DNA of 34,165 nt from contig NZ_CP023283.1 in NCBI RefSeq assembly GCF_002896875.1, forward strand, positions 1 through 34,165, written 5' to 3'. Source of the DNA: Nostoc sp. CENA543 (lineage in GTDB: Bacteria > Cyanobacteriota > Cyanobacteriia > Cyanobacteriales > Nostocaceae). The notes under the pieces were generated by a model, which saw nothing but the letters and a program-made list of their open reading frames with translations, searched no databases and was not told the origin of the DNA. Positions 5,334 to 28,486 of this stretch are shown in pieces (position 1 is the stretch's first letter; each line of letters begins with the position of its first letter). Both the position numbers and the translations under genes were made by a program.

Positions 5334-5477
5334 CGAAGACAAACTAGCGATCGCACCAACTCAATAACTTATCCTCTCACACCAGAGCTTGACACCATCT
5401 ATTTATTGCTGAAAAGCAACCAGAGCAAACATTTCGCCCTAAATCTCGGAATGTTCCTGAATCCCTGCCAAAACTCT

Positions 5478-5590
5478 AAAAAGCTAAAAAGTTAAAAAGC
5501 TAAATTTAGCTAAAGTCAAAAAGCTAAAAAGATAATTAGCTAAATTTATTAATTGACAAATTAATCAAATGAGTTTAAGTTAATTGGCTA
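5478..5590. repeat. AGCTAA repeat array upstream of parA; candidate partition site or operator
   Basis: The AT-rich gap between hsdS and parA (5334-5615) carries repeated GCTAA motifs: AAAGCTAA near 5481 and 5521, TTAGCTAA near 5506 and 5535, and TTGGCTAA near 5584. It also holds a perfect 14-bp palindrome AGCTAAATTTAGCT (5498-5511). A TTGACA at 5553-5558 could be a -35 box, but the -10 is weak. Repeats directly before a parA gene are the usual place for a centromere or for an autoregulatory site bound by the partner protein. That role is inferred. Confidence 0.6.
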
Positions 5591-5615: not shown

Positions 5616-6395
5616 ATGTTGACGATTACCGTAAGCTCCTTGAGTGGCGGACAGGGCAAGACGACGACCTCACTGTTCTTGGGGCGGCTGTTATCACGTC
5701 AGGGCTTGCCCACCTTGATGCTAGACTCCGACCCCCAACATAATCTCACCACCTATCTGGGGTTTGAGTTAGAACCCAACCAACCAACCCTATTGGAATT
5801 TCTCAAAAAAACAGTTGCACCAGAAGACTGCATTTACCCGACTCAAGACAACGACAACTTATTTCTTATCCCTGCCGACGACCAACTTGATACCGTACAA
5901 GATTATTTATCTAACAGTGGAGTGGGTGCAACCTTACTCAAACGACGATTGGAAGCCATCAGCAAAATATTCAAAGTCTGTATAATTGATGCCCCACCCC
6001 AGCGATCGCAAATTTGTTTGACAGTCATCGGCGCAGCAGATTTTTTGATTATCCCCGCCGAAGCATCAGTTAAAGGTTATGGTTCGCTAGTGCGGACACT
6101 GGACTTACTCAGTGGCTTGCAAGATGTCGGCGCAACGAATGCCCAAGTATTAGGTGTTTTACCCTTCCGCGACCGTTGGTTTGGGAACACCCAAGCCCAA
6201 GAAAGTCGGGCGGCTGTAGATGGAATGCGTGATGAAGTTGGCGAGGAGTTAGTTATACCCTCAATCCGTGAATCAGAACGCTACAAACAAGCCATCAACA
6301 AACGTACAACTCTCTCGCAGTTGGGGTATAACGACTTGGAATATCCATTTGAAATTTTAATTGAGAAAATTCAGGCTGCACTTGGGGGTAAATAA
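5616..6395 (+). CDS. parA: ParA-type plasmid partition ATPase
   Basis: This is a 259-residue Walker-type ATPase of the ParA/MinD family, expected to move plasmid copies over the nucleoid with a centromere-binding partner. The deviant Walker A is SGGQGKTTT at about residues 10-18, with a signature glycine-rich loop at the extreme N-terminus. Walker A' is LDSDPQHNLT (about 36-45) and Walker B is CIIDAPPQ (about 122-129). There is no N-terminal helix-turn-helix extension, which fits the short ParA class (type Ib) that pairs with small ribbon-helix-helix partners. ATG 5616 has no obvious ribosome-binding site. Two bases separate its stop from the partner gene. The upstream AGCTAA array is a plausible cis site. 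Confidence 0.93.
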   Translation: MLTITVSSLSGGQGKTTTSLFLGRLLSRQGLPTLMLDSDPQHNLTTYLGFELEPNQPTLLEFLKKTVAPEDCIYPTQDNDNLFLIPADDQLDTVQDYLSNSGVGATLLKRRLEAISKIFKVCIIDAPPQRSQICLTVIGAADFLIIPAEASVKGYGSLVRTLDLLSGLQDVGATNAQVLGVLPFRDRWFGNTQAQESRAAVDGMRDEVGEELVIPSIRESERYKQAINKRTTLSQLGYNDLEYPFEILIEKIQAALGGK

Positions 6396-13235: not shown

Positions 13236-15050
13236 CTACTTCTGTCCATTCTGCCCGTCTGTCTGTTGAAGGGGAATTTCGATAGTATTGGCATCTAGCC
13301 AGACGGACAGACTCGCCTCTACCAATTCATTAAACAGTCGCTTCAACTCCTCGGAACTGAACCGTTGACCTTTTACCTTAAAGTTGGGCTGTATTTCCTG
13401 TATGATTGCCTTCTTTCTTCCGGTGCGCTGGAGGTATTGCAGCAGTGATTGGGCTAGTGGTGTTAGGGATGGGGTAGGGCTTATTTCTGCCTTGGTATCA
13501 AGATTAAATTCCAGTTCATAAATCCGTTCTAAAGTGGCTTTATCAATGGGGGGATTTGGGTTAGCTTGTGCTGCTGATACAGTGTCACTAAAATCAGAGA
13601 TTTTTGCAGTCATTGTGGGCAGTTCAACTAATATCCATTCGTTAGAACTATCGAGTTTTACCTTGGCTAGACCCGTAGATTTGGGCTGTAATGTTACTGG
13701 ATCTACCTGTGCCAAACATTCAACTTGCAGCATTTTAGAAACCAGATTATGTAAACCTTTAATGCCAAATAAACAAGTCTGGGTATTGTTGTGAGCAACC
13801 ACAGTTAAAGGCATTTCTTGCTTGCGGCTCTTGGTCAGTGCCAACTTACCGAATTTCTCCAATAATTCTGCATCTTTAATAAAGTCGCCATAGGTGGTTG
13901 CTTCCTCACAAATTAGGGCTGTTGCTTTGCCCTCTGCCCAAAGTTTCTGCCGCCATTGCTCCTCACTTAAAGATGAATTATTAAAGGTTTTTAACCGTTG
14001 TTCCAATTCCTCAACATAATCGCGGATTTGTTGTTCAATATCTGACCAAGAGTGATAACTTTCAACCCCCCGCCATTCTGCTTTATTACTGTCAGGGTCA
14101 AGGACAATAACTCGGTAGCCAGCCTGTTTTTTCTGTTTGACGACGTAACGAGCCAGCCAAGACTTCCCGCCCCCCTGGTTGCCCCAAATTAAGGCAGTTT
14201 GTTTGATGAGGTTTTGCACCCATGCGGTGTTGCTGTTAGGTGGGATAACTGGCTGCTGCGCTTGTTCATCCACAGTTCCAGGTGTGCCATGTGGTAGCTG
14301 TGCGGTAGGCTGTTGCTGTGGTTCAAACTTAGAAAAACTTGCGCCACCATCAAGTAAGTGACCAAAGTCATAATAATCCTCTGCCGACATCGCCATGAGT
14401 AGGGCTATCTGCTGCTGTGGGGTAATACTTGCTATAAACTGCTGTCTAGCCTCAGCAATTTTGATACCACGCAAGTATTTGAGCAGTTCGTTACCAGATA
14501 GGTCTAACAGTTGCTCACCAAGTTTTACACTGTAAGACGCTCTCACACCTTCAAATTGTTTAGTAGCACGGTAGTGGGGTCTAATGTCGCTGAGATAGTC
14601 TTTGGCTTTAGAAGTTAACAACAGACCGATTCCCCCCAACACCATCGCCCCTATCCCAAAGTGAATTTTAAACGGATTATCAGCTGGTAGTTCTCGGAAT
14701 ACATATAAGCTTTCATGCTGGAGAAATGCCCACTCGTTATAGTTGGGGTTGCTGGTGCGGTACTGATTAGCCTTCAGATAGGGTGCTGGGATTTGCGATC
14801 GCTGTTCGTACCTACAATACTTATTACCCAGAAGTAAACGTTCTGTTTCTCCCTCTGCTTCTAGTGGTGCATCGTGTATCCTGGCTGATTTTGGGTAAAA
14901 ACATATTTCTTTCTTGGCTATCCCGTCCCCTAAATGCCCTACCACAACACAAATCACCGCGCCTACTACCGATGCCATCATTAGGAGATTTAGACGTAGT
15001 GGCAGACTATAACGACGCTGGTTAAGTTCTGATGGTTTTATGTCTTTCAT
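13236..15050 (-). CDS. Membrane-anchored P-loop ATPase, coupling-protein (VirD4/TraD) or HerA/FtsK-like layout
   Basis: This is a 604-residue ATPase. Two membrane segments (about 22-40 and 129-146) flank an extracytoplasmic loop of about 88 residues, the topology of type IV coupling proteins. The cytoplasmic part has Walker A GNQGGGKS (290-297), a VIVLDPDSNKAEW strand (315-327) typical of the HerA/FtsK/VirD4 group, a Walker B-like ALICEE (378-383) and a sensor-type VVAHN (417-421). A Pro/Gln-rich linker (about 243-275) precedes the ATPase, and a possible winged-helix segment lies at the C-terminus. It is the last gene of the minus-strand operon, and its ATG overlaps the previous stop (ATGA). 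With a MobV relaxase on the same plasmid, DNA pumping or coupling is the best inference; a partition anchor for the actin encoded upstream is an alternative. Confidence 0.8.
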   Translation of the reverse strand: MKDIKPSELNQRRYSLPLRLNLLMMASVVGAVICVVVGHLGDGIAKKEICFYPKSARIHDAPLEAEGETERLLLGNKYCRYEQRSQIPAPYLKANQYRTSNPNYNEWAFLQHESLYVFRELPADNPFKIHFGIGAMVLGGIGLLLTSKAKDYLSDIRPHYRATKQFEGVRASYSVKLGEQLLDLSGNELLKYLRGIKIAEARQQFIASITPQQQIALLMAMSAEDYYDFGHLLDGGASFSKFEPQQQPTAQLPHGTPGTVDEQAQQPVIPPNSNTAWVQNLIKQTALIWGNQGGGKSWLARYVVKQKKQAGYRVIVLDPDSNKAEWRGVESYHSWSDIEQQIRDYVEELEQRLKTFNNSSLSEEQWRQKLWAEGKATALICEEATTYGDFIKDAELLEKFGKLALTKSRKQEMPLTVVAHNNTQTCLFGIKGLHNLVSKMLQVECLAQVDPVTLQPKSTGLAKVKLDSSNEWILVELPTMTAKISDFSDTVSAAQANPNPPIDKATLERIYELEFNLDTKAEISPTPSLTPLAQSLLQYLQRTGRKKAIIQEIQPNFKVKGQRFSSEELKRLFNELVEASLSVWLDANTIEIPLQQTDGQNGQK

Positions 15051-15613
15051 TTCTTACGCCAGTAGAAAGATATGAGAACAGAAATAACTGCGGCTAACCC
15101 AAGAAATAACCCGTAATTAGTTTCTTTGGGTTTCTCGATGCCCTCGTAAGCTTTTACCTGTTCAGTTACGGTAGAAAAACTGTTACGGGCTATTTTGTCC
15201 ATGTCTTGGGCATCGCCTGTTAACTTCCATGAACTAGCGGCCAGGGTGGCAGTGCGAATTACACCAATGCCAAATTTCTGGCGGTCGCTGATTTGGGGAA
15301 TGATGCTGTTGTGAAATCGCAAGTAGCAGAGGGTAGCCGCCAAGGATGCGCCAACGGGTAAACCAGCAATCACGGCGGGGAACAGTCCAACACTGCCAGC
15401 AAGGTATAGATATTGGGTTGATGTGATTTGCAATCCTGCCAGGAATGCACCTTGGGCAATGCCTTGAGTTATGGTGATACTGCTGTCAGTTTCAGCAATC
15501 GCCTGTTGTAAAAGTTCAGAGTCGTACTGTTCACCGTCTACAGGCTGTATACCTTGGTCTACAATCTCTGCATCAAAGTAAATTGGTGTTTGTTTTTGAT
15601 TGTTGGTCAACAT
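15047..15613 (-). CDS. Unknown membrane protein
   Basis: This is a 188-residue protein of unknown family. The first 45 residues are acidic and polar; one or two hydrophobic segments span about 66-98 (YLYLAGSVGLFPAVIAG region) and a final membrane segment lies at about 168-184, closing with FYWRKK. The stop overlaps the ATG of the ATPase gene by the ATGA arrangement, which implies coupled translation and a possible physical partnership at the membrane. It has no recognisable enzymatic motif. In mobile plasmids such small multi-pass proteins often accompany coupling ATPases, but nothing here identifies a known transfer component. Confidence 0.72.
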   Translation of the reverse strand: MLTNNQKQTPIYFDAEIVDQGIQPVDGEQYDSELLQQAIAETDSSITITQGIAQGAFLAGLQITSTQYLYLAGSVGLFPAVIAGLPVGASLAATLCYLRFHNSIIPQISDRQKFGIGVIRTATLAASSWKLTGDAQDMDKIARNSFSTVTEQVKAYEGIEKPKETNYGLFLGLAAVISVLISFYWRKK

Positions 15614-15830
15614 AGGGACACTTTTCAGAAGAGATTAGCCCAGGGGTCGTGGTGTGCCATACAAACTTTGCATGGTGTAGGCGGAGGTGCAGGGGTGCTT
15701 TCGGTGCAGAGGGGAAGGAAAATTTTACTGCTAGTTTTCTCTCCTCTGCTCCTCCGCTCCTCTGCTCCCTTGCTTGCCTCCACCCAGCTTTTTTTGGGTT
15801 GGCAATACCACTAGACCTGGGCTTGTGCGT
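15614..15830. repeat. CT-rich intergenic repeat within the operon
   Basis: This 217-bp gap holds a purine-rich segment near 15700 (GCAGAGGGGAAGGAAAA) facing a pyrimidine-rich one ending near 15755 (TTTTCTCTCCTCTGC), which can form an imperfect hairpin. It is followed by more CTCCTCTGC-type repeats. Similar CTCTGC runs are scattered in Nostoc genomes. It may act as an internal attenuator, since it is the largest gap in the operon. Confidence 0.45.
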
Positions 15831-16436
15831 TTAGTCAATCAACCGTCTAAAGAAACCTTTCACACCGCGCATAGCGTTAGAGCCGTGTCTGTGAATATCT
15901 TTTAGGGTTTCTTTGGCTCGGTCTGCGGGTGAAAGTCCTTGTTGCTTGTCCTTGACCTGCTGCCACACCTGAGTTTGTGCCTTGGTTGCATCAATCTCAA
16001 TGGTTCTGAGCGTGGCACGGTGCGATTCACCCAATAAGTTAAGTGTCCGCCCATGCCGAAACTGTTCTTGGGCTAGCTGGTTGTCAGATGCAATCACTTT
16101 TTGCTGTAGTCCATAACCTAAACGTGCGTCACTAACTCTCACCTGTGACCAACCATCAGCCATTTTGTTGATAGTTGTACCGGCGGCGGTGAGAAACTGG
16201 GTTTCTTCTGCCATGACTGTTTCAGTTGCTTTTAAACCTTGGCTGAGATTACCGAATACGGCTTTGGCATTTTGGGCGCGTTGAGTTTGTTGGATGCGGA
16301 AATCTGCTACCTGCGCTGCTGCTGTTTCGTTACCGTCGAGGGCTTGAAATATGGTTTCTTGGTTAATGCCCGAAAGGGAATGTAAGGCAGCATAGGTGAT
16401 GGGTGCATCTAGTTTGAGTTTTACTGTCCGGTTCAT
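15831..16436 (-). CDS. Unknown helical (coiled-coil-like) protein
   Basis: This is a 201-residue protein read from ATG 16436, whose first base is shared with the TAA of the preceding gene (TAATG overlap); a longer GTG start at 16445 is possible. The sequence is almost entirely helical, rich in Ala, Gln and charged residues, with a long stretch of heptad-like spacing (about 45-170). The C-terminus is basic (HRHGSNAMRGVKGFFRRLID) and could contact nucleic acid or membrane. No family is recognised. Its tight coupling in the operon suggests a structural role together with the membrane protein and ATPase that follow. Confidence 0.7.
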   Translation of the reverse strand: MNRTVKLKLDAPITYAALHSLSGINQETIFQALDGNETAAAQVADFRIQQTQRAQNAKAVFGNLSQGLKATETVMAEETQFLTAAGTTINKMADGWSQVRVSDARLGYGLQQKVIASDNQLAQEQFRHGRTLNLLGESHRATLRTIEIDATKAQTQVWQQVKDKQQGLSPADRAKETLKDIHRHGSNAMRGVKGFFRRLID

Positions 16437-16831
16437 TACTCCCACGCTCCTAGTTCTTCTAGTCTGGTGAAGATGTTGTTTGCTTTGTCTCTAGTTGCGT
16501 CATCAGTGATATCGTTTAGTGCTGTTGAATCACCTTCCCCAAGTCTCCAAATCGTTTCGTCTGGTAGTTCTCCCCCAAAATTGCCTAAAAACTGACCGTG
16601 AGTTAAAGGATTGGGTGTTTCGTCAATGGTTTCAAATTGGTCATAGATTCCAGATTGTAGGTATGGCAGTGCTTCTCGAATGATTTGTTGCTGCTCTGGT
16701 GTTCTGCCTAAGTCTGGTTGGTATGGATCATCATTGGCCACGATGAAGGCTGCTTCTTGTGCCAATTCTGTTGGGCATCCATTGTTAGTTAGTGCGTCCA
16801 ATGCGGCGATAAATAGATTCTCGTTCTTCAT
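16436..16831 (-). CDS. Unknown acidic protein, 131 residues
   Basis: This is an acidic, soluble 131-residue protein with no recognised family. It begins MKNENLFIAALDALTNNG and carries several Asp/Glu-rich segments (VANDDPYQPD, ETIDETPNP, DITDDATRD). No membrane segment, signal peptide or metal motif is seen. It shares one base with the following gene (TAATG), so translation of the two is probably coupled. It lies in the middle of the actin-to-ATPase operon. Confidence 0.65.
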   Translation of the reverse strand: MKNENLFIAALDALTNNGCPTELAQEAAFIVANDDPYQPDLGRTPEQQQIIREALPYLQSGIYDQFETIDETPNPLTHGQFLGNFGGELPDETIWRLGEGDSTALNDITDDATRDKANNIFTRLEELGAWE

Positions 16832-16909
16832 CTTGCTAAAATCTCTGTGTGTTGTTTGACAACCAGAGGGCGATCGCCAGATTCGCAGTCCATGCGATCG
16901 CTCTCCCCA

Positions 16910-17107
16910 TTACTGAAAAAAACCTTCTCTCGATACATCCACAGCACAAGCTGTTGCTTCCCAGCCCAGCGCGTTGAGAAATTGCGTAACATCGCCGATT
17001 GTGACATCGGCATCAATTTGCAGTGCTAAAAATTGGGGATGTTGTCTGATTTGGGTGAGTAATTGTTGGGTTTGTGCAATTAATTCTAGTAGTGGTTGAT
17101 TCTGCAT
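16910..17107 (-). CDS. Small unknown protein, 65 residues
   Basis: This encodes a 65-residue protein beginning MQNQPLLELIAQTQQLLTQI, probably helical at first and then with ALQIDADVTIGDVTQFLNAL. I prefer this frame to an overlapping minus-strand frame at 16828-17016 because its composition is protein-like and its start lies 11 nt after the previous gene's stop. It has no recognised family. The 78 bp downstream contain two HIP1 octamers (near 16871 and 16896) and no gene. Confidence 0.5.
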   Translation of the reverse strand: MQNQPLLELIAQTQQLLTQIRQHPQFLALQIDADVTIGDVTQFLNALGWEATACAVDVSREGFFQ

Positions 17108-17118
17108 AATTCACCTCA

Positions 17119-17385
17119 TCAAAATAGTGACAATTGCAATGATTCTTGACTGATTACAGAACTCTTTGTAGTCACACCTTCCACTTCATAACAACGAGTA
17201 GTTAAAGCTTTGTGATTCAGCTTTAAATCTGCTTTTTTTCGTTGTCCTGCTAATGGACGAAAAATAAATTGTGGGGCTTGGATTGTGCCTGTTTTATACA
17301 GGTATTGATACATTGTTCTGTCTATTTGATACACTTTCGTAGACGATAACCAAGTGCTGTCATGAACTCTGCTTAAGTTGTTCAT
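17119..17385 (-). CDS. Small basic protein, 88 residues
   Basis: This is an 88-residue protein of unknown family whose ATG overlaps the stop of the preceding gene (ATGA at 17385-17382). The middle is basic (RPLAGQRKKADLKLNHK) and suggests nucleic-acid binding. The N-terminal part (YQIDRTMYQYLYKTGTIQ) could form a small helix-turn-helix or MerR-like start, but I cannot confirm this. It belongs to the same operon as the actin-like gene. Confidence 0.58.
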   Translation of the reverse strand: MNNLSRVHDSTWLSSTKVYQIDRTMYQYLYKTGTIQAPQFIFRPLAGQRKKADLKLNHKALTTRCYEVEGVTTKSSVISQESLQLSLF

Positions 17386-17639
17386 GAGGCTACCCCCTTA
17401 AATTGATTAGCCATAGAAGCTATTCCTGCTTTATTCGGTTGAATTGCTGTTGGTGTAGACACCTGATTTTTTGGAAATGTTTGTAAATTGATCCCACCCT
17501 GAAAAATCAGCTTCTCCACTGCTGCTGATAGTGCCTGTGTTGGGGCATCTTGAGGAATACCAAACATCTGGCACAATTCATAAACTGCTAAGTATGAGAT
17601 GCTTATACGCCGAGATTCATAGGACGTTTTATCAGCCAC
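17382..17639 (-). CDS. Small protein, possible ParR-like partner of the actin ATPase
   Basis: This is an 85-residue protein encoded 4 nt after the actin-like gene. The N-terminal half, SRRISISYLAVYELCQMFGI followed by a helix through ALSAAVEKLIF, has a strand-helix-helix pattern that could be a ribbon-helix-helix DNA-binding domain. The C-terminal half is polar and could be a flexible tail contacting filaments. In ParMRC systems the ParR gene directly follows parM, so the position fits. The 59-residue gene at 19000 is a competing candidate for the DNA-binding partner. The assignment is inferential. Confidence 0.58.
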   Translation of the reverse strand: MADKTSYESRRISISYLAVYELCQMFGIPQDAPTQALSAAVEKLIFQGGINLQTFPKNQVSTPTAIQPNKAGIASMANQFKGVAS

Positions 17640-17643
17640 TTGT

Positions 17644-18759
17644 TTACACTCCTATTGAGTTTTCTGTTAATAACTTCAGTCCAAACGCATTGATGAATTG
17701 GGGATTTGGTAAGACTACAAAGCCTAAACCAGCGAGATTTTGATCCACCACTGGCAGTGAAACACCACCACCCCAAGCAATAAGGTATTTAGCTCTATCC
17801 AGGTAATTACCAGAGGTAACGAAATTGGCGAATTTCTCAATTCTTGTAGCCCACCAATCATCAAGACATTGCCTATATTCAGCCTCAAAATTCTTGCCTG
17901 TGAGGTGATTTCCTCCGTAAGTTAAAGTTCCTTCCAAAATTCCTTTGTTCACTAAAGAAGGTGAATGTTTGACATCTTTGGATAGCAGACTTACTTTGTC
18001 GTTTCTCTTGTCTAATGCTTCTGCAATCATTGAGTGCAGTTCACCGCATCCACCTTCAATTAGATGGCGGTCTATGACTGCACCATTGCCGTTAAATACG
18101 GTAATTAGCCAAGTTGATGAACCGATATCAAGGGCGATGGCAATTTCTGATTCTTCTAGGGCTAGAGTTGGTTCACCGAATAAGCAATGGGCGATGCTTC
18201 CAAACCCTTCGGGATAAATGCCTGTAACTACGATTTCAACAGTTTTGGTGATAATTTCTCGATTTACGGGGTGTTTGTGTTGGAAGGTGTGAGTACCTTG
18301 CACTCTGCGCTTGATTTCTCCTCCCCAGCGTTCTGGGTTGTGGTTACTCAAGCTAATTGAAAGTTTCATACCATCTGGGACATTCAGAACTGCCAAATCT
18401 GCAAGGATGCTTTCTAGTGCCAGTTCTGCTTTTTTAGATTTGTCTTCGTGCAATAAGCTGTGGTCAAGTTTTGCGATCGCTGCACTACCCCAGAAAAATT
18501 GAGTGTCTTTTAAGTCTTTGCGTGAACCTTCGACATAACGAACCCAGCACCCATCTTTAGAAATGGTTTCGTGATGACGAATGTTCCGGTTGCGAACTAC
18601 TGAGTAGGCGGCTGGCATCATGATACAAAAATCACCATAGGTTGCCTTGCCATACCCAGCACCAGGGTCTTTACCTGCAATCAGGGCATTTAACCCAGAT
18701 TTGGCAAGCAAGTTAGCTTGAACAAGCCAATTTTTGTCATTGGTGTATGTGGTTGTCAT
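17644..18759 (-). CDS. Actin-like plasmid segregation ATPase (ParM/StbA-like), copy 1
   Basis: This is a 371-residue actin-fold protein from ATG 18759; the frame is open upstream to 18864, but that extension does not look like protein. Visible nucleotide-binding elements are a glycine-rich KDPGAGYGKA (30-39) at the phosphate-1 position, LDIGSSTWLITVF (210-222) as phosphate 2, and AWGGGVSLP (328-336) as the adenosine motif. The typical closing segment is PQFINAFGLKLL. Such proteins polymerise and push plasmid copies apart. The phosphate-1 loop is unusual: it has Pro after the Asp and lies after about 30 residues. It is the first gene of an eight-gene operon and diverges from a small ribbon-helix-helix-like gene across a repeat-rich region. 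Confidence 0.83.
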   Translation of the reverse strand: MTTTYTNDKNWLVQANLLAKSGLNALIAGKDPGAGYGKATYGDFCIMMPAAYSVVRNRNIRHHETISKDGCWVRYVEGSRKDLKDTQFFWGSAAIAKLDHSLLHEDKSKKAELALESILADLAVLNVPDGMKLSISLSNHNPERWGGEIKRRVQGTHTFQHKHPVNREIITKTVEIVVTGIYPEGFGSIAHCLFGEPTLALEESEIAIALDIGSSTWLITVFNGNGAVIDRHLIEGGCGELHSMIAEALDKRNDKVSLLSKDVKHSPSLVNKGILEGTLTYGGNHLTGKNFEAEYRQCLDDWWATRIEKFANFVTSGNYLDRAKYLIAWGGGVSLPVVDQNLAGLGFVVLPNPQFINAFGLKLLTENSIGV

Positions 18760-18920
18760 GGTTCTGATTATTGGTAAAAGTCTGAATCTTTCTGGCTTTA
18801 GAGAATTTAGAGGCTGAATCGCCTTTAATCCACACATCCAGTTTTTGGTAAGCCTAAACATCACTTTCTGGCTTCTATTGCCTTTGTTGGGTGGTTATTT
18901 TTGGCTGTCTACTGTCATGC

Positions 18921-20298: not shown

Positions 20299-22782
20299 AT
20301 GTCGTTACAAGTATTGAATGACTCAGCTACCAAAAATAAACCAGTAGAAGTTAGCAAAACTAACCCCTGTCCCCACTGTGGAAAACCAGACTGGTGCTAC
20401 TCCATCGGTGAACTAACAGTCTGCAACCGAGATGCTGAACCCGCTACTGGCTGGGAGAGAACATCTAAAACCGACCGCAACGGCAAACCATACTACGCAC
20501 TAGCCACAGCCAAAAAATCACCACGTCCCCAAGGCAAGGAAGAATACGTTTACACCGACATAGCCGGTAATCCCTTAATTAAGGTCACAATCATTCGCCC
20601 AGGTAAGACCAAAGATAAGGATGTCTTTCAGGAATATTGGGACGGAACACGTTGGACGAAAGCCAAAGACTTTTCACCAGAACAAAAACGCTCCCACCAG
20701 CAACAAATTACCATCTATCGTTACGCCGAAATCAGGGAAGCGATCGCGTCAGGTAAAACCATCTTCATAGTCGAAGGTGAACGCCTAGCTGATAGCCTTT
20801 GGGCAAGAGACATAGCAGCCACTACCAACATCGGCGGTGCTGGCAAGTATCGCTCCTACGGCAACTACCAAAGTGCTTTAGAAGGTGCTAACCTAGTTCT
20901 TTGTCCCGACCGTGACGAGCCAGGGCTAAAGCACATGGAAGATATTAATGAAGACTTCCCAGATGCCAAGTGGTTGTATGCCCCACCCAGCGATTTTTAC
21001 TGGACACACTTACCCAAACATGGCGGATTGGATATTCAAGACTGGATAGACGACGGAGCAACAGCCGAAGACATCCTGCAAGCCATCGAGGATAGACGCA
21101 TTGTAGTAGATGCGCTCAACGAAACCCTAGAACTCGTTGCCGAGAGGGATAGACCAGCCCAAAGTAAGTATAAACAAAAATTGAATGCCATTCGTGCCGT
21201 GTGGGGAGAACGCCTACGCTGGAATACCCTCAAAAAACAAGTAGAACTCGACGGTAAACGATTACCACTTGACCGCATTGATTTACAAGTGGCAATTGAT
21301 ATTGACATTGACATCAGTAAAGAACAAGCCAAAGGCATTGTTTTAAAACTGGCTCAAGCCAACTCTTACAGCCCAGTAGTGGAGTATTTAGAATCAGTCG
21401 AAGGGCGTTACCCCAATGTAGATGTCAGTTTGTTAGATAAATTAGCCGAACGTTATTTTGGCACTACTGACCCACTACACGCCGCACTGATGAAGCGCAC
21501 TTTAATCGCCGCCGTCGCCAGGGCATTTGAGCCGGGGTGTAAACACGATGAAATTACCATCCTCCAAGGTAAGCAGAAATCCCTCAAATCCACATTCTGG
21601 GAAGTTTTAGCCGGGGAAGAATTTTTCACCGATGACCTCAACGGCACAGAGAAAGATGAGGTATTAAAAATCAGCCAGTATTGGATTTTAGAATATGCCG
21701 AGTTTGAGAACGCCTACAAGAAAAAGGATGTCTCCCAACTCAAAGCGTTTCTGTCCAGAAAGAAAGACTCAATGCGTCGCCCTTATGGGACTGATATTGA
21801 GGATTTCCCCCGTCCATCAATCTTAGTAGGAACTACCAATTTAGATGAATTTCTCTATGACCCCACTGGGGAACGTCGCTTTTGGGTAATTAAGGTTTTA
21901 TTTAAGAAAATACCCATCCACCTGCTAGAGCAAGAACGAGATTTAATTTGGGCAACGGCTGTAGCTGCCTACCGTAATGGTGAACAATGGCGACTGACTG
22001 AACAAGAAGATGAATGGTTAGACGCAGCCAATAAACAATACCAAAGCACCGACACATGGGAAGAGGCGGTAATGGCTTGGGCTGAGTTACACAAGGAAGT
22101 ATCTGTAGGGGAAATCCTCAGCGATGTCCTCAAGATTGAGTTAGCCAAGCAGAGTAAAGCCGAACAGAACCGTGTAGCTGCTATTTTACGTTCTCACGGC
22201 TGGACAAGGGGCGATCGCAAACGGGTAAAGGGTCGATTAATTCGTCCCTGGCTTCGACCCCAACAGGAAGTGGAACAAGAGGTGGAACGGGGGGTGGAAC
22301 AGGAGGTGGAACAGCCTCAAACCCTTGTAAAACATGACTTCCAGCCAGAGTGTTCCACCTGTTCCACCAATTCCCCCCAAACTTTGCCAAATTTTGAGAG
22401 CAATAATAAAACTGCCCCCTCAACACTGCTAGAAGTAACACCCCAAGAAATAGAACCGCTAGAAAAAAATCAAAAAAGTTTAGAGGAACAGGGGGTGGAA
22501 CAACTTGTAGATGAGCCGCAAACCCAGTCACCACAAGTAATAGAAGAGTGTTCCACCTCCCGTTCCACCCCCTGTTCCACCTCCCTATTTGTGGATGAAA
22601 AACAGGCACTAGTTGTAAATGTAGGACTGATGAGGGACTGCATTGCGGATCAATCGTGGGAAATGATCAACTCATTTTTAGAAGAATGGACTGATGAGTT
22701 TAAAGCAGCAGTGTGGCAGGAATTAACCCCAGAAGAACGCAAAGCAGTTAAGCAACTAAAGCGAGGTAACACCCATGAATAA
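20299..22782 (+). CDS. Zinc-finger/TOPRIM primase with VapE/D5-type helicase; probable plasmid replication protein
   Basis: This is an 827-residue replication protein. Residues 24-42 hold a zinc-binding cluster (CPHCGKPDWC, then a later Cys42). Residues 155-206 form a TOPRIM fold with the catalytic Glu159 in FIVEGE and the acidic pair Asp204/Asp206 in CPDRDEPG. Residues 380-560 are a VapE/D5-like helicase: a P-loop GKQKSLKS (424-431), a Walker B-like YWILEYAEFE, and GTTNLDEFLYDPTGERRFW, the signature of superfamily 3-like helicases. The tail from about 655 is low in complexity and is encoded by a 12-bp repeat (see 22271-22579). ATG 20299 is preceded by GGAGG. It is the best initiator-primase candidate on the plasmid; the last 8 nt overlap the next gene. 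Confidence 0.88.
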   Translation: MSLQVLNDSATKNKPVEVSKTNPCPHCGKPDWCYSIGELTVCNRDAEPATGWERTSKTDRNGKPYYALATAKKSPRPQGKEEYVYTDIAGNPLIKVTIIRPGKTKDKDVFQEYWDGTRWTKAKDFSPEQKRSHQQQITIYRYAEIREAIASGKTIFIVEGERLADSLWARDIAATTNIGGAGKYRSYGNYQSALEGANLVLCPDRDEPGLKHMEDINEDFPDAKWLYAPPSDFYWTHLPKHGGLDIQDWIDDGATAEDILQAIEDRRIVVDALNETLELVAERDRPAQSKYKQKLNAIRAVWGERLRWNTLKKQVELDGKRLPLDRIDLQVAIDIDIDISKEQAKGIVLKLAQANSYSPVVEYLESVEGRYPNVDVSLLDKLAERYFGTTDPLHAALMKRTLIAAVARAFEPGCKHDEITILQGKQKSLKSTFWEVLAGEEFFTDDLNGTEKDEVLKISQYWILEYAEFENAYKKKDVSQLKAFLSRKKDSMRRPYGTDIEDFPRPSILVGTTNLDEFLYDPTGERRFWVIKVLFKKIPIHLLEQERDLIWATAVAAYRNGEQWRLTEQEDEWLDAANKQYQSTDTWEEAVMAWAELHKEVSVGEILSDVLKIELAKQSKAEQNRVAAILRSHGWTRGDRKRVKGRLIRPWLRPQQEVEQEVERGVEQEVEQPQTLVKHDFQPECSTCSTNSPQTLPNFESNNKTAPSTLLEVTPQEIEPLEKNQKSLEEQGVEQLVDEPQTQSPQVIEECSTSRSTPCSTSLFVDEKQALVVNVGLMRDCIADQSWEMINSFLEEWTDEFKAAVWQELTPEERKAVKQLKRGNTHE
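22271..22579. repeat. 12-bp TGGAAC repeats in both orientations inside the primase gene
   Basis: TGGAAC occurs at 22271, 22283, 22295 and 22307 (exact 12-bp steps, GTGGAAC context) and again at 22496. The inverse GTTCCA occurs at 22352, 22361, 22550, 22562 and 22574 (the last three again 12 bp apart). The repeats encode VEQEVERGVEQEVEQ and then CST-rich stretches. Five copies face each way, so single strands could fold into hairpins. Confidence 0.8.
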
Positions 22783-23044: not shown

Positions 23045-23500
23045 TTAGCCAAACAGGTTGTCCAAAAAACCAGTTTTTAATTCACCAGGAATTAAACTAG
23101 AATCCTCATCATCATCCTCCTCCTGCTCCTCCAGTTCAGGCATTTCCTGAACTACAGCCGAATGGCTACCGTTACCATCAACAGCAGCAGCAAAAGGTAA
23201 CGGCACATAAGCATAAACCTCAGCATCCAAACCCAACTCCAGAGCCATAATGCCGAAATGAGATTCCGCCATCCGCCGTGAAATCAGATAAGAACAACGC
23301 ACCTGCTGAGGCGAAACCCCCCCCAACCGAGATTGAGCGCGGGGGAGAAAATACATCACCAACATCTCCTCCAACAACCTCTTAGCCTCAGTCGCCGACA
23401 AAGAATTGAGATAATCAGCAATCACAGCCATTGGTGTTCCCTCTATCGGCTGGAAGCGAGGCAAAGACAAACTCTTACGCTTTTTTTTGGCTCCTGTCAC
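23045..23500 (-). CDS. Possible adaptor protein of the second actin-like system
   Basis: This is a 151-residue protein read after the second actin-like gene and overlapping its end by 26 nt. It has a strongly basic start (TGAKKKRKSLSLPRF), a central helical section (about 30-95) and a very acidic tail (ELEEQEEDDDEDSSL) ending in a hydrophobic GFLDNLFG. A basic DNA-binding end plus an acidic, filament-contacting tail is the arrangement expected of ParR-like adaptors, and gene order (actin first, adaptor second) is as in ParMRC. No specific family is recognised; the role is inferred. Confidence 0.66.
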   Translation of the reverse strand: MTGAKKKRKSLSLPRFQPIEGTPMAVIADYLNSLSATEAKRLLEEMLVMYFLPRAQSRLGGVSPQQVRCSYLISRRMAESHFGIMALELGLDAEVYAYVPLPFAAAVDGNGSHSAVVQEMPELEEQEEDDDEDSSLIPGELKTGFLDNLFG

Positions 23501-24809
23501 CTTTAACCTCTTTCACCCTATCCAACAGCTGATCCATCATGCCAAAACAATCAACCAAGCGAAAAGGCAGCTCCTGCTCACCATCGCCGTAACCAATAAA
23601 AAAAGTAGATTGAATTTGACGAGTAATATTGTCCATCCACACCAAATTGCTCAAGCGTTTGCTTGTATCTTTATGCTTATAACCAGGAGCGCGTTTACCC
23701 TTGACCAGAGTATTACCAGTACCAGCATCAGGAGCGCAATTAAAGAAAGTCTCCAATTCGGGTTCTAAAAAAGCCGCCGCCCCACCACCAACAATCACAT
23801 CATTCACCCACTCAGGTAAATTCAACTGCAACCACTGCTGGAGGCGAAACCAATAATTACTCGTAGCCACAGAAATAGCAGCAGCAATATCCTGTATCTC
23901 CCGCTCCCGTAAAGAAGCATCCTTAGCAGCAGCTAATCCTTGAATCGCCTTCAAATTAATCCATTGCGGATGCACAGTACAACTAGGCAGCCCATATTTT
24001 TGGTATTGCTGACCGTAAACCTCCATCCTCGCCTCATACAAACCCAGAAACATAGCCGCAGCCAACTGGTCACGACCAATACCAGAAACACGAGAACAGA
24101 CCATCTCCAGAAACAAACTAAAACCCAACTGCGGACTATCGGCAAACTTCCGCACCCCCTGCTCAAAATAAAGCAGAGTCGTATTCCGGTGGCCCAACAT
24201 CAAAACAGCCACCTTGCGGTGTTGTAACCCAGACACACCATTGCGTTTAGTGTAGATAGCTAACAGACCAGCCCCTTCAGGACGGCAGAGAAAATGCTCA
24301 GACAACTGAACATTCCAAGATTGTCCACGAAACTTAAACTCAGCCAACATCTTCTGCAATTGCGCGTGAAAGCGTGGGTGGTCATTGTACTCATTCCAAG
24401 GCAGCAAGAAAGCCAGATGTACAACAACATGAGCCTTGCCGCCCTTACCATTTTTAGTAGAACTGACCTCATGCTTTTCTAAAATCACCCCGATAGCAGC
24501 CAGAACCTTATACAAAGCATTTTCATACTTACGTTCCTTAATGCGGTCGATATCAGCAAACACCAAAGCGAAATCACCAACCACAAAAATCTGATTTTGC
24601 CATTCAACAAAAGCCTCATGTTCAGGTAAAGGAATACCATTCCAGAGTTGACCTTGTTGGTAACGTAGAAAATCAGACTTGTTAATTTGCTCCAGATGAG
24701 GAGACATCATCAAAAACTGAGGTTTAGACCAGCCCTTAAATTGGTAGATCACCTTAGTACCAGAGCTGCCCACGTCAACCGACACAAAAAGGATATGGTT
24801 GTCAGCCAT
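23475..24809 (-). CDS. Actin-like plasmid segregation ATPase (ParM-like), copy 2
   Basis: This is a 444-residue actin-fold protein, distinct from the one at 17644. Phosphate-1 motif VDVGSSGTKV is at 11-20, a phosphate-2-like VAVLMLGHRNTTLLYF lies near residue 195-210, and the adenosine motif VIVGGGAAAFL lies near 340, followed by the helix ending ELETFF. The phosphate-2 site has a His in place of the usual Gly/Asp context, so hydrolysis may be atypical. It is longer than R1 ParM (about 320). It starts with ATG 24809 and overlaps the adaptor-like gene at its 3' end. Upstream lie spaced TGTG repeats that could be its cis site. Confidence 0.8.
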   Translation of the reverse strand: MADNHILFVSVDVGSSGTKVIYQFKGWSKPQFLMMSPHLEQINKSDFLRYQQGQLWNGIPLPEHEAFVEWQNQIFVVGDFALVFADIDRIKERKYENALYKVLAAIGVILEKHEVSSTKNGKGGKAHVVVHLAFLLPWNEYNDHPRFHAQLQKMLAEFKFRGQSWNVQLSEHFLCRPEGAGLLAIYTKRNGVSGLQHRKVAVLMLGHRNTTLLYFEQGVRKFADSPQLGFSLFLEMVCSRVSGIGRDQLAAAMFLGLYEARMEVYGQQYQKYGLPSCTVHPQWINLKAIQGLAAAKDASLREREIQDIAAAISVATSNYWFRLQQWLQLNLPEWVNDVIVGGGAAAFLEPELETFFNCAPDAGTGNTLVKGKRAPGYKHKDTSKRLSNLVWMDNITRQIQSTFFIGYGDGEQELPFRLVDCFGMMDQLLDRVKEVKGDRSQKKA

Positions 24810-25130
24810 AAAACAAGCGTCTAAGTGAGGGTCAAAAGAAATGTAACCTTATATAGAGAAGAGAGATAATAAGAAATCTAAAAAATGCACAAAGAAAAGC
24901 AATAAACTGTGTAGTAACTGTGCAGAGAGCGAGAAAAAAACCAACAGTGTGGTAGAGTGACAGCCAGCGAAAATGTGTACAACCTGTGCAAAGACAAAGA
25001 CAACACAAGAGCAGCCAAAAACCCAGTAAGATAGGTTAAAGCCATGCTAGACAAAGGTTTTCGCCAGCAAGAAACCACGCCTTGTATCCGCGCGTGGGGG
25101 CTACCAAAAAGCAATTCCGAGTAGAGCCGC
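24810..25130. repeat. Noncoding region with 11-bp-spaced TGTG repeats
   Basis: No convincing gene is present. AACTGTG occurs at 24905-24911 and 24916-24922 (11 bp apart), and TGTG recurs at 24948, 24974 and 24985, the last two again 11 bp apart. The region lies directly upstream of the second actin-like gene and may be its promoter and centromere. The evidence is only moderate because the motif is short. Confidence 0.4.
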
Positions 25131-25397: not shown

Positions 25398-27134
25398 ATG
25401 GCTTACGCAATTGCTCGAATCAAAAAACTCAAGCGCAGCAATTTAGCAGGCAGTGAAGCGCACACAGCTCGTGAACGAGAGACACCCAACGCTGACCGCA
25501 GCAAAAAAAATATCAGATTTATTGGTAGCAACTCATCAACAGAGACATTAGATCAGCTGGTAATCGACAAGATAGGACAACAGCAACGGAAGATTCGCCC
25601 TGATGCAGTGTATGCCGTGGAGATTTTACTCACCGCCAGCCCGGAGTATTTTAGACCAGACTGCCCAACGAAAGCAGGATATTACGAAGCTGACAAAGTA
25701 CGTGCATGGTTATTTGCATCTCAGCAGTGGCTACAGGATAATTACGGCTCACGCATTGTCAGAGCCGAACTGCACTTAGATGAAGCCACACCCCATATTC
25801 ATGCTTACTTTGTCCCCTTAGATGACAATGGACAACTCAGAGCCAAACACTTCTTCGACGGTCGGCAGAAAATGAGAAAGTTCCAAGATTCCTACTCCGC
25901 CGCTACAGAACATCTAGGGTTAGAACGTGGGATTAAAGGCAGTAAAGCCCAACACCAGGACATAAAAGACTTTTACAGCATAGTCAACGCCGGTATAGAA
26001 CCCAACAGCAAACTCAGCCAGTCCCAAATGCAAGCCAAAGCCGCCGACCGGGATAGAGCGCAAACCAGGAAACAGGAACTAGAACGCACAGCCAAAGCCT
26101 TGGCACAAGAGAATGAACGGTTACAACAGCGAATTCAGGAATTAGAAGCCTCAAAAAATCAGTGGTTACAGCAAGCAACCTTACTGCGTGAATTGGCATT
26201 AGAAGATGTGGCATGGCAGTTAGGATTAGACCGCGACCACAGTCAAGCGAATAGATGGAAGGGTCACGGTCACATCATTAATATAGATAAGTCAAAATTC
26301 TACGACTTTGCCCCTGGTCATCAAAAAGGTGGCGGCGGTGCAATTGATTTGGTAATGCACGTCAATGACTGCGATTTCAAAAAAGCGATCTCCTGGTTAC
26401 ATGACCGATTTGGAGAATCGGGGGTAATGAGGGCAGCCATAGCCAAAACTCAGCAGGAAGTAATTGAGATTGCCCAAAAACAACCAAGACCCCAATTTAC
26501 ACCCCCAGCAGCAGATGATAATCAATGGCTCTCAGTACAAAACTACTTAACTAAAAAAAGAGGACTGCCTAATTATTTGGTGTCAGCCCTGAAAGAATCA
26601 GGATTACTGTATGCCGACGAGCGAAAAAATGTTGTGTTTGGGATGCGTACTCTAACTGGGGAAGTCATGGGTGCATTTGTGCGTGGCACAGTGGGAGAAG
26701 ATAACACCTTCATGGGTTATGCCAAAGGGACAAAACGGTCTGAAAGCTGGTTTTATCTCCGGCTGGGTGGAGAAGATAGTGATGAAAACGATGAAATTCA
26801 GAGAGTGATTTTGTGTAAATCTCCCATTGATACCCTGTCAGTGGCGGCACTGGAGATAGAGATACATGACGGAGTACCTCCAGACAGAACCATGTATTTG
26901 GCAGTGGATAGCCCCCAGTCCTTACCGTTAGAGTTTCTCCGAACAATCCAGCGAATTGGAGTGACCTTTGATAATGATGAGTTGGGGAATGAAGCGGCTC
27001 ATGCTGTCAAGGAGTTGCTGCCACAGGCGCAAATAGTTATGCCTGACGAATTTGATTGGAATCAGCAGCTTTTGGCAACACTGGAACGGGAGAGATTGGA
27101 ACAAAAACCACGGTCAAGGGGGTTAAGGCGTTGA
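25398..27134 (+). CDS. MobV-family relaxase fused to a primase-like (DUF3991/TOPRIM) module
   Basis: This is a 578-residue mobilisation protein. Residues 1-190 are a MobV/Pre relaxase: motif I AHTARERETPNAD (21-33) and the metal-binding motif HLDEATPHIH (126-135). MobV enzymes nick one oriT strand and start conjugative transfer. A coiled coil (about 210-265) leads to a primase-like part: a DUF3991-like segment (270-340, FDFAPGH-type FYDFAPGHQKGGGGAIDLV), then a TOPRIM fold (468-545). The TOPRIM position normally holding catalytic Glu (ESPIDAL-type) is Lys474 in ILCKSPIDTL, while the DND pair (525-527) in FDNDELG is kept, so priming may be lost or altered. The fusion would let one protein cut, lead and help prime the transferred strand. 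The oriT-like region lies directly upstream. Confidence 0.9.
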   Translation: MAYAIARIKKLKRSNLAGSEAHTARERETPNADRSKKNIRFIGSNSSTETLDQLVIDKIGQQQRKIRPDAVYAVEILLTASPEYFRPDCPTKAGYYEADKVRAWLFASQQWLQDNYGSRIVRAELHLDEATPHIHAYFVPLDDNGQLRAKHFFDGRQKMRKFQDSYSAATEHLGLERGIKGSKAQHQDIKDFYSIVNAGIEPNSKLSQSQMQAKAADRDRAQTRKQELERTAKALAQENERLQQRIQELEASKNQWLQQATLLRELALEDVAWQLGLDRDHSQANRWKGHGHIINIDKSKFYDFAPGHQKGGGGAIDLVMHVNDCDFKKAISWLHDRFGESGVMRAAIAKTQQEVIEIAQKQPRPQFTPPAADDNQWLSVQNYLTKKRGLPNYLVSALKESGLLYADERKNVVFGMRTLTGEVMGAFVRGTVGEDNTFMGYAKGTKRSESWFYLRLGGEDSDENDEIQRVILCKSPIDTLSVAALEIEIHDGVPPDRTMYLAVDSPQSLPLEFLRTIQRIGVTFDNDELGNEAAHAVKELLPQAQIVMPDEFDWNQQLLATLERERLEQKPRSRGLRR

Positions 27135-27153
27135 TATCATTCAGCAGCCGGAC

Positions 27154-27277
27154 GAACTCTTGACCGCTTCGCTCGAATAAGCGGTGGCTCTTACGGGCAT
27201 GGAGATGTTGGTGAGGCTAATTAGATCCGCAAGCCCGCAAGAGCCACTCCGCTTCGCCGCTTATTCGCCAAGAGTTC
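27154..27277. repeat. Long imperfect hairpin downstream of the relaxase gene
   Basis: Three blocks pair in nested order: GAACTCTTG (27154) with CAAGAGTTC (27269-27277), GAATAAGCG (27175) with CGCTTATTC (27258-27266), and GTGGCTCTT (27184) with AAGAGCCAC (27239-27247); GGGC/GCCC extend the inner end. Arms are about 45 nt with a loop of about 35 nt. It starts 20 bp after the relaxase stop. It could be a terminator-like structure, a single-strand origin or a MITE-like remnant. Confidence 0.7.
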
Positions 27278-27376
27278 TTCAACTCTCACTTAGACCCTGT
27301 TAAAATAACTTCACCTCAAAAAATTCAATTTTTCGCCCCAAATGCCGTGTAAAAACGGCTGAAAAGAGAAATGGGC

Positions 27377-27452: not shown

Positions 27453-27581
27453 TGCTTAGTCTAGGCATAGTCCCGGCATAGTGTAGGCATAGTTTGGGGA
27501 AATCATAAATAGAAACTACTGAAACCCAAGGCTTAGTCTAGGCATAGTCTGGAATTAGTCTAAGCATAGTGTAGGCATAGT
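27453..27581 (-). repeat. 11-bp-phased repeat array, GGCATAGT type
   Basis: GGCATAGT (or a close variant) occurs at 27453 (TGCTTAGT), 27464, 27475 and 27486, and again at 27530 (GGCTTAGT), 27541, 27552 (degenerate), 27563 (AGCATAGT) and 27574. Every step within a cluster is exactly 11 bp, and the two clusters are 44 bp (4 x 11) apart, so all units keep one phase. On the minus strand the core is ACTATGCC. This fits protein-binding iterons or a centromere. Confidence 0.85.
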
Positions 27582-27849
27582 CTAGAGAAATAGTAGTTTG
27601 GTATACAAATTATTGATTGAAAGTTCACTAATCGCATAGATTTAGTGGAGATTATAACTAAGCCCCGTTGAGGTGTGGTGACTTTTGTAGTGTTTATGTA
27701 GTTGAGTGGTAGTATTTTTTGACAACTCTGCTCGTCAAATCAATTTTGATTCAAAAAACTTGTTTCAAAATTTAGGCGTACTGTGCGAAAGTTTTAGTCA
27801 GAAATTTTTGGAGTAGAAATTAGGGTTATGAATTAGGTTTTTGGGGTCA

Positions 27850-28066
27850 AAATCCTTATATTTACCTTTGGTTTACCTTGTAAATGCCATTGAAATGCCA
27901 TAGATTTACCTTATTTTTGGCAGAATAACCAAATTTTTCAAAAAATCAATTTCAGGCAGCAGTAAATCCTTATTTCTGCCATTGGTATGCCATTAAAATG
28001 CCATTGGTTTACCTTATTTTTGCCTTTTTTAGAAAATCCTTGTAAATACCTTAAAAATGCCTTTGA
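27850..28066 (+). repeat. 11-bp-phased repeat array, WWTRCCWTNNN type
   Basis: Fifteen clear 11-bp units share CC at positions 5-6 and T at 8. Block A is 27850-27915 (6 units such as TTTACCTTTGG and AATGCCATTGA, with a degenerate seventh to 27926), block B is 27964-28029 (6 units) and block C is 28034-28066 (3 units). Blocks A and B both open with AAATCCTTATW. The core ATGCC is shared with the opposite-facing array at 27453. The surroundings (27582-28138) are very AT-rich and have no gene. Confidence 0.85.
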
Positions 28067-28159
28067 GGTTAAATAATGTTTAGGATGCGAAGTTTTTTTA
28101 AAGCTCTGATAAAATTCAGTAGCGAAAAATTTTAGTCGATGATGAGTCAGGGGCGATGT

Positions 28160-28486
28160 ATGCAAGCAAAAAGTGAAGTCATACTAAAATTTAGCGGTTC
28201 ACTACCTGAAGCTAAACCAGCAGCGAATAAAAAAGTGGAAGTCTCACTGACTGACCAGAATGGTGTAGTCTTCACCGCTTTGATTAATGCAAAAAGCTGG
28301 CGCAAGGCAGAAACAAATACGTCAGAGTTTGCAGACTGGGCTGGAGCTATATCTGGTAAGCTTGGTCAACCAACAGAGAATGGTTTTGAGGTAATTGATG
28401 CTGGGCTTCAGATATTTGAAAAAAAAGCGAAAGAGCCTAAACCAGATGCAGAGGTGGCCGTAGCTGAAGCTGGTGCAGCTTCTTAG
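28160..28486 (+). CDS. Small conserved cyanobacterial protein (resembles the family annotated FinO-like)
   Basis: This is a 108-residue protein read from ATG 28160, which follows AGGGGCG at a suitable distance; ATG 28139 is an alternative. The core SEVILKFSG, then ALINAKSWRKAETN, FADWAGAISGKLG and GFEVIDAGLQIFEKKAK resembles small Nostoc proteins often annotated as fertility-inhibition FinO-like. I recall this pattern and have not searched it; a true FinO RNA-chaperone function is not shown by the sequence. The C-terminal tail is Ala/Glu-rich and flexible. It lies directly downstream of the 11-bp arrays and upstream of a hairpin, so the arrays may control it or its product may act on them. 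Confidence 0.7.
   Translation: MQAKSEVILKFSGSLPEAKPAANKKVEVSLTDQNGVVFTALINAKSWRKAETNTSEFADWAGAISGKLGQPTENGFEVIDAGLQIFEKKAKEPKPDAEVAVAEAGAAS

Follow-up and report, generated by a model that had tools for sequence, protein, structure and literature searches.

Putative parC-type centromeres, one joined to a probable MobF-type oriT, on a plasmid of Nostoc

It is still an open question what connects plasmid partition with conjugation, and plasmids R1 and R388 each show a tie between the two. In actin-type partition systems the centromere, parC, is composed of direct repeats usually located upstream of parM, with units of 11 bp (R1) or 10 bp (pB171) (PMC9426499, PMC4949242). The parC of R1 comprises two sets of five repeats, and both ParM and ParR of this plasmid stimulate the relaxase TraI (PMC4949242). 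The R388 protein StbA binds next to oriT, at two groups of repeats, each with five 9-bp units and 2-nt spacers, and the Stb system balances stability against transfer (PMC3098194). The nic region of R388 is GGTGC-GTATTGTCT^ATAG, with the caret marking the nick (PMC4176350). Actins related to those of plasmids are also encoded on Nostoc chromosomes, where FcmB, the partner of FcmC, is described as a derivative of plasmid partition actins (PMC12645912).

Here we analyse a stretch of 34,165 nucleotides of a Nostoc plasmid contig (C6), referred to below in its entirety as the window, in which a preliminary description had noted families of 11-bp repeats and likened them to parC. We consider it probable, judging from sequence comparisons, that the repeat region holds two parC-type centromeres, one of which is fused to an oriT of the MobF type, and that it represents a site of both segregation and transfer.

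Two phased arrays and their neighbourhood in the window

The two repeat families were borne out far above chance and comprise nine and 16 units, i.e. 25 in total, where at least 24 had been claimed. Array 1, which is parC-like, consists of nine 11-mers on the minus strand with the consensus TAGACTATGCC and 0–3 mismatches per unit. Four of them form block A (27453–27496; starts at 27453, 27464, 27475 and 27486) and five form block B (27530–27584; starts at 27530, 27541, 27552, 27563 and 27574). Because the step from 27486 to 27530 equals 44 bp, or 4 × 11, the register is kept between the blocks, just as had been stated for this gap. Array 2 lies on the plus strand and the ATGCC cores of the two arrays accordingly face opposite ways, as described before. 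Its 16 units, placed by hand from the sequence and then checked, make up block a (27852–27928; seven units, five with the core T(A/G)CC(A/T)T; relatives on Nostocaceae plasmids), block b (27966–28031; six units, core in five) and block c (28036–28068; three units, core in two). The exact core is thus present in 12 of the 16 units, and CC at unit positions 3–4 in 15. The phasing, initially described as strict, is exactly 11 bp within each block, but in array 2 the steps between blocks are 48 and 15 bp and the register is lost. Array 2 is also looser than array 1 in that an automatic scan against a single 11-bp consensus performed poorer on it, giving 14 rows, several of them out of step.

The lag-11 autocorrelation has z = 8.2 for array 1, 6.0 for array 2 and 8.5 for the whole repeat region, and in each case none of 500 dinucleotide shuffles was as high. 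The four top lag-11 peaks of the 34-kb window all belong to these arrays, and a relaxed core can be followed in uninterrupted 11-bp steps through at most 6 units in the region vs 1 in the remaining window. In the stretch separating the arrays, lag 11 falls outside the top eight autocorrelation lags. Three GTAGT motifs at exact 11-bp steps (27687, 27698 and 27709; 27687–27713, plus strand) are located there, 5′ of the putative oriT described below (its trailing side), and several relatives have similar TGTAGT triplets in a comparable position.

Array 1 has relatives in 11 of 217 genomes of the family, the source genome counted in. At five of 11 other loci (L173, L174, L175, L178 and L183) the array precedes a parR-parM operon and has a divergent MobV gene on its other side, parR and parM having been assigned by an HMM for each. 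Neighbours differ at the remaining six loci, and some of them we take to resemble protelomerase fragments. Within the source genome, clusters of the array-1 unit were found on none of contigs C2, C3, C4 and C5. The ParR type that stands beside array-1 relatives had no match elsewhere in this genome in a search run without a positive control, and array 1 of the window may therefore be either an orphan or a target of ParR2 (see below). ParM1 (17382), one of the candidates put forward earlier, has neither an array nor a phased peak upstream of it in the window. As a partner of array 1 it was rejected, since contig C2 encodes a 94.6% identical ParM1 but carries no cluster of the array-1 unit. ParM1 belongs to a minus-strand cluster (13236–18864) together with small proteins and a HerA-like ATPase recognised by weak Pfam matches; contig C2 has 93–95% identical versions of ParM1 and two of its small neighbours, and the cluster may be a segregation or coupling module. 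The best explanation for array 1 appears to be a second, two-block parC-type centromere separate from array 2.

On the trailing side, the window encodes a MobV relaxase with a DUF3991/Toprim C-terminus (25398–27134, plus strand; Mob_Pre, 135.8 bits) and, on the minus strand, ParM2 (23475–24809) and its ParR-like partner ParR2 (23045–23500). ParM2 is an actin-like ATPase of the ParM/CorM kind. Its profile matches include CorM (PDB 9rmi; 6.6e−23) and Clostridium ParM (1e−9), and the best fold matches of its structural model (pLDDT 84.8) are CorM and R1 ParM (2.3e−13 for the latter). The NCBIfam family FcmB is matched with 38.7 bits, far under the cut-off of 300. ParR2 has a helical core and an acidic tail ending in LFG. 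In its model, helices are confident in residues 22–88 and the tail is disordered with a short helix near the end; there is no N-terminal strand, and a Foldseek search against the PDB returned nothing significant. Among 28 aligned ParR proteins, at least 90% share a Phe in the tail, which is thus nearly invariant, and 14 have the motif LF(G/S/N) there. ParR2 had been listed among possible array binders, and it does appear to be ParR-like, belonging to the same HMM family as the ParR proteins encoded beside arrays elsewhere. Another listed candidate, the conserved small gene at 28160–28486 (plus strand, 108 aa), is the first leading-side gene of the oriT-array cassette and matches no Pfam or NCBIfam family at E 0.1. 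It is unlikely to encode the array reader, because copies 73–88% identical to it adjoin unlike arrays of the GGGA type (L004, L005, L010 and L080).

Neither array is upstream of parM in the window: both are 2.6–3.3 kb from ParM2, with MobV in between. The DNA upstream of ParM2 (24850–25057, minus strand) has a weak 11-bp phasing, with 33 and 36 of 77 positions at lag 11 vs a window mean of 19.9 (sd 4.4), which is below the z cut and makes it a poor third parC candidate. Two further features of the window can be mentioned. A long hairpin just downstream of mobV (27151–27280) has a counterpart in the corresponding position of L004, L005 and L007 and matches no Rfam family at the gathering threshold. 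AT-rich 8- and 24-bp repeats (CTAAAAAG) at 5469–5544, just upstream of the ParA gene at 5616, are a candidate site of a third partition system.

A conserved element between the arrays and its linkage to MobF genes

BLAST searches with the repeat region retrieved relatives on many Nostocaceae plasmids, phased repeats among them, as the preliminary description had suggested looking for. The most widely recurring part is an element of ~50 bp (27741–27790, plus strand), which had gone unnoticed as an oriT and stands between the two arrays, with array 2 starting directly 3′ of it. Its near-invariant core is (G/T)GCGTACTGTGCG, represented in the window by GGCGTACTGTGCG (27775–27787). In the source genome, the element is also present on contigs C2 and C3 and twice on C5 (at most one core mismatch), each time with a phased array 3′ of it, and is absent from contig C4 at up to one mismatch in the core. 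The chromosome contains six one-mismatch matches to the bare 13-mer core, which we take as chance. At E 0.01 the element model matches 78 of the 217 family genomes; in an order-wide draw of 388 genomes, 14 match at E 1e−5, all but one of them (13/14) from Nostocaceae. No Rfam family was found at the gathering threshold.

Aligned copies of the element display a hairpin tendency followed by GTACTGTGC. The mean stem 5′ of the nick is 2.54 compared with 0.57 in shuffled sequences; a perfect stem is found in 44 of 87 distinct elements and is missing from the other 43, including that of the window. After the hairpin arm, the element reads GGC-GTACTGTGC^G and shares six of nine bases with GTATTGTCT, the hairpin-to-nick segment of R388; alignment with R388 GTATTGTCT^A predicts the nick at 27786/27787. 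Based on this similarity and on its genomic context, we identify the element as a putative oriT of the MobF relaxase family. The idea of a XerCD-like recombination site was dropped once the MobF linkage appeared.

The TrwC/MobF domain (PF08751) occurs in 60 of the 217 family genomes. From the PF08751 matches listed, we collected 90 stretches upstream of MobF genes, leaving out fragment rows of the same genes: a first set of 60, mostly the best-scoring ones, and 30 others, mostly weaker or fragmentary matches. The element is present upstream of 83 of these 90 Nostocaceae MobF genes and divergent from the gene in all 83. In the first set it was found in 60 of 60 cases, on the divergent strand and 117–1028 bp from the TrwC domain; in the second, it was found in 23 of 30, again divergent in every case. 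Matches scored 13.8–49.5, the top of 300 shuffles, used as the cut, being 5.0 and the reversed-pattern control 2.0. The seven misses are L241, L249 (a stretch of only 283 bp), L257 (4.6, below the cut of 5.0), L263, L264, L265 and L266. Contig C6, which includes the window, has no match to PF08751; in the source genome such matches are located on contigs C3 and C5. Given that the window encodes a MobV relaxase and lacks a PF08751 match, its oriT would be used in trans. Where plasmids are annotated, the relaxase gene preceding the element is of the MOBV, MOBP or MOBF type, and one plasmid with the element has no annotated relaxase. PLSDB types six of seven plasmid records as non-mobilizable, and the element is present in all seven. 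It is a sequence-defined candidate oriT for Nostocaceae plasmids.

The elements often occur in outward-facing pairs, which in several plasmids flank the relaxase gene, with the arrays on the outside. Among the 150 matches listed, neighbouring elements within 12 kb of each other form 23 outward, 4 direct and no inward pairs; outward examples are G150:C4, G150:C12, G123:C109, G131:C231, contig C5 of the source genome (9241(−)/14488(+)), L004, L075, L079 and L080. In Tolypothrix PCC 7712 plasmid unnamed12 (L078) there are two annotated protelomerase genes, and an oriT with a phased array adjoins each of them, at 26136(−) and 30555(+).

Phased arrays, ParM and ParR in relatives

Copies of the element were compared for phasing on either side. 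On the 3′ (leading) side, 113 of 122 copies have 10 or 11 bp as their best lag, with values above the 99% shuffle level in 108 of 122; on the 5′ (trailing) side, these lags are the best in 43 of 118 copies and exceed the shuffle level in 11 of 118. In the phasing counts close relatives are counted separately, and the 122 copies include the chance chromosomal match L047, which was excluded from the counts of motif orientation, hairpin stems and ParM linkage. Near-identical relatives were kept in the leading-side, motif-orientation and ParM-linkage counts; sites whose leading DNA was shorter than 330 bp or duplicated that of another site were excluded from the leading-side and ParM-linkage counts, which reduces the 60 MobF stretches of the first set to 55 rows in the latter. 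The array units vary widely, including ACCAT or GCCAT at 11 bp, GGGAA or GGAAGT at 10 bp, TGACGC, ACACAG and others. For two motif classes, orientations relative to the nick on the leading side are 388:76 and 275:27, and those on the trailing side 143:164 and 24:31; copies belonging to neither class number 36 of 121. Strong 11-bp arrays away from an oriT leading side were also observed, in L008 (7858–8063; TGGCATTGAAT) and L010 (5824–5976; CAACTGTTCTA).

The combination of a widely varying unit with a constant pitch of 10–11 bp would be expected of a DNA-shape (bendability) code at oriT, used by HU-like proteins without any sequence-specific reader, and HU-family genes are indeed located near oriT and array in L005 (10336–10593), L010 (4686–4868) and L071 (36575–36868). 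Nevertheless, the identity at lag 10/11 in the best window is mostly 45–70%, the motifs keep one orientation, and the motif follows the ParR type, all of which make a pure shape code very improbable.

In relatives, the arrays are linked to ParM and ParR. At 48 of the 55 sites upstream of MobF genes, a gene detected with the profile of the window's ParM2 starts 213–461 bp past the nick and is codirectional, with none in the opposite direction, and the array occupies the gap between the nick and the start of this gene. Such a gene is present also in 20 of the 30 further MobF stretches, and in G107:C36, G108:C2 and G128:C51 a ParM-like gene immediately follows a relative of array 2. On contig C3 of the source genome the order is MobF, oriT, array, ParM-like gene, ParR-like gene. 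Two contigs with oriT and array, C2 and C5, yielded no ParM2-like gene, and for 66 of 121 elements no ParM2-like gene is located within 1.5 kb on the leading or 3 kb on the trailing side, partly because many of the loci are short. Starting from ParM2 gave a similar picture: searching named genomes with the ParM2 alignment returned 57 loci (many of the strains overlap the family set), of which 54 have a ParR-like gene assigned to the HMM family of 23045, 41 a divergent MobF gene upstream, 40 the oriT, and 42 upstream DNA with a 10- or 11-bp phasing that exceeds the shuffle level. Closer ParM2 relatives without MobF (L187–L196) have no match to the oriT pattern in the flanks fetched (at most 3.5 kb, some shorter), where a strong phased array was found only in L190 and a different repeat in L193. 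In L184–L186 the array is downstream of ParR, and in L184 and L185 the oriT core is there as well.

The phased arrays 3′ of MobF oriTs usually end, beside MobF genes, at parM, mostly followed by a ParR-like gene, and are therefore best read as the parC of type II loci. They might, however, be accessory sites of the relaxosome or of the leading region, comparable to the StbA sites of R388, with ParM merely being the next gene. The position between oriT and the first leading gene and the 11-bp pitch are the same as in R388 (PMC3098194), and arrays adjoin oriT also where no ParM2-like gene is within reach. The phased stretch nonetheless reaches the parM start in 48 of the 55 MobF sites, the next gene usually being ParR-like, and the array motif tracks ParR more than MobF, which leads us to regard the accessory-site explanation as rather unlikely. 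For 16 non-redundant loci, array k-mer distances correlate with distances of ParR and ParM at 0.65 each and with those of MobF at 0.26; in partial correlations, the value for ParR is 0.65 when MobF is controlled for (p 0.0005), and that for MobF is 0.28 when ParR is controlled for (p 0.008). The contrast is smaller over all 34 loci (ParR 0.60, ParM 0.59, MobF 0.52; partials 0.54 for ParR and 0.43 for MobF). The correlation between array and ParR is weakened as evidence by shared descent, and the linkage could reflect one inherited module.

The same context bears on replication iterons, the main alternative offered at the outset, by which the region would be oriV. It is AT-rich indeed (34% GC), a large Rep-like ORF on contig C2 (judged by reading) ends ~460 bp from the element, and the cumulative GC-skew minimum is ~1–4.2 kb from the element in 7 of 12 plasmids, above chance by a rough estimate. 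However, this minimum, which is confounded by gene direction, is 5–20 kb off in the other five plasmids, the Rep gene of the window (20299) is 4.7 kb away, and most MobF-linked arrays adjoin MobF and ParM. Moreover, the element is common to plasmids with VapE, CyRepA1 or PriCT-2 Reps, and L076 has three near-perfect direct repeats spaced by 22 bp (18084–18160) right before its PriCT-2 Rep gene, possibly the replication iterons of that plasmid. Thus, the AT-richness stands, and an origin of replication is nevertheless an improbable explanation of the arrays. By eye, the VapE-type Rep of the window (20299–22782) and a large but different Rep-like ORF of a co-resident plasmid (G000:C2:19509–23057) have a similar C-terminal stretch.

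The preferred reading thus remains that of parC-type centromeres, and the initial analogy with parC and ParM, strongly supported in relatives, holds in part: the arrays precede parM in 48 of 55 MobF-linked sites of relatives and a parR-parM operon in five of 11 array-1 loci, but in the window neither does. Judged by gene content and order, the relatives appear to belong to type II ParMRC loci and the arrangement in the window does not. As the window has no array upstream of parM, the claim for it rests on homology to parM-linked arrays. The notion of a single system did not survive, since array 2 appears to belong to the MobF oriT and array 1 to be a separate parC-like site.

Proposed function and comparison with known systems

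We propose for array 2 the role of a parC-type centromere, which adjoins oriT on its 3′, leading side and offers about one ParR site per helical turn. A ParR-like protein, expected to be of the RHH type, would coat the phased sites, and its C-terminal tail would cap filaments of the actin-like ParM, which would position the plasmid before division. A MobF relaxase would nick the same DNA at GTACTGTGC^G and transfer the strand in such a way that the centromere enters the recipient first; on MobF plasmids, parM-parR would also be among the first DNA to enter. The cassette in the window may be a partly orphan copy, with MobF supplied by another plasmid (contigs C3 and C5) and the arrays served either by ParM2-ParR2 (23045–24809) or in trans by co-resident plasmids, such as that with ParM-ParR beside oriT on C3. 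More tentatively, oriT and parC might constitute a portable docking cassette. Plasmids that had lost MobF and parM-parR would retain it and depend on co-residents for the MobF that transfers them sideways and for the actin filaments that bring them into daughter cells, with partition and conjugation acting as one nucleoprotein machine in which ParR-ParM at parC positions the relaxosome. With one array built onto the site cut for transfer, inheritance and transfer appear to be wired together, and an actin-type centromere built onto a MobF oriT would make the link between partition and conjugation directly testable. Neither this oriT nor an oriT-parC fusion is described in the titles and opening abstract lines returned by our literature searches, subscription papers and bioRxiv aside.

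Among known systems, the closest by components are the ParMRC systems of R1, pB171, pSK41 and pCW3, which combine phased direct repeats, an actin-like ParM and the adaptor ParR; the two-block layout of array 1 resembles the two sets of five repeats in R1 parC (PMC4949242). Unlike in those four, the putative centromere here sits next to a MobF oriT, with the MobF gene divergent from it, the unit motifs differ between co-resident plasmids, and many copies have no parM-parR in reach. ParR of R1 is reported not to bind oriT specifically (PMC4949242), whereas here a parC-like array adjoins oriT. FcmB/FcmC of Nostoc and CorM/CorR of Anabaena, the latter compared by PDB title alone, represent the best-matching actin family of ParM2, but FcmB/FcmC are chromosomal and shape cells, whereas the genes studied here reside on plasmids beside oriT and arrays. 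By position, the closest is the oriT-stbDR-stbABC region of R388 (MOBF11), where repeats of 11-bp pitch are also located beside a MOBF oriT on the side that enters first (PMC3098194) and where, as proposed here, stbDR is tied to both stability and transfer (PMC3098194). However, stability of R388 needs StbA and not the Walker-type ATPase StbB (PMC3098194), whereas the neighbour here is an actin-like ParM. In our judgement, the region would work like parC of R1 and sit like stbDR of R388.
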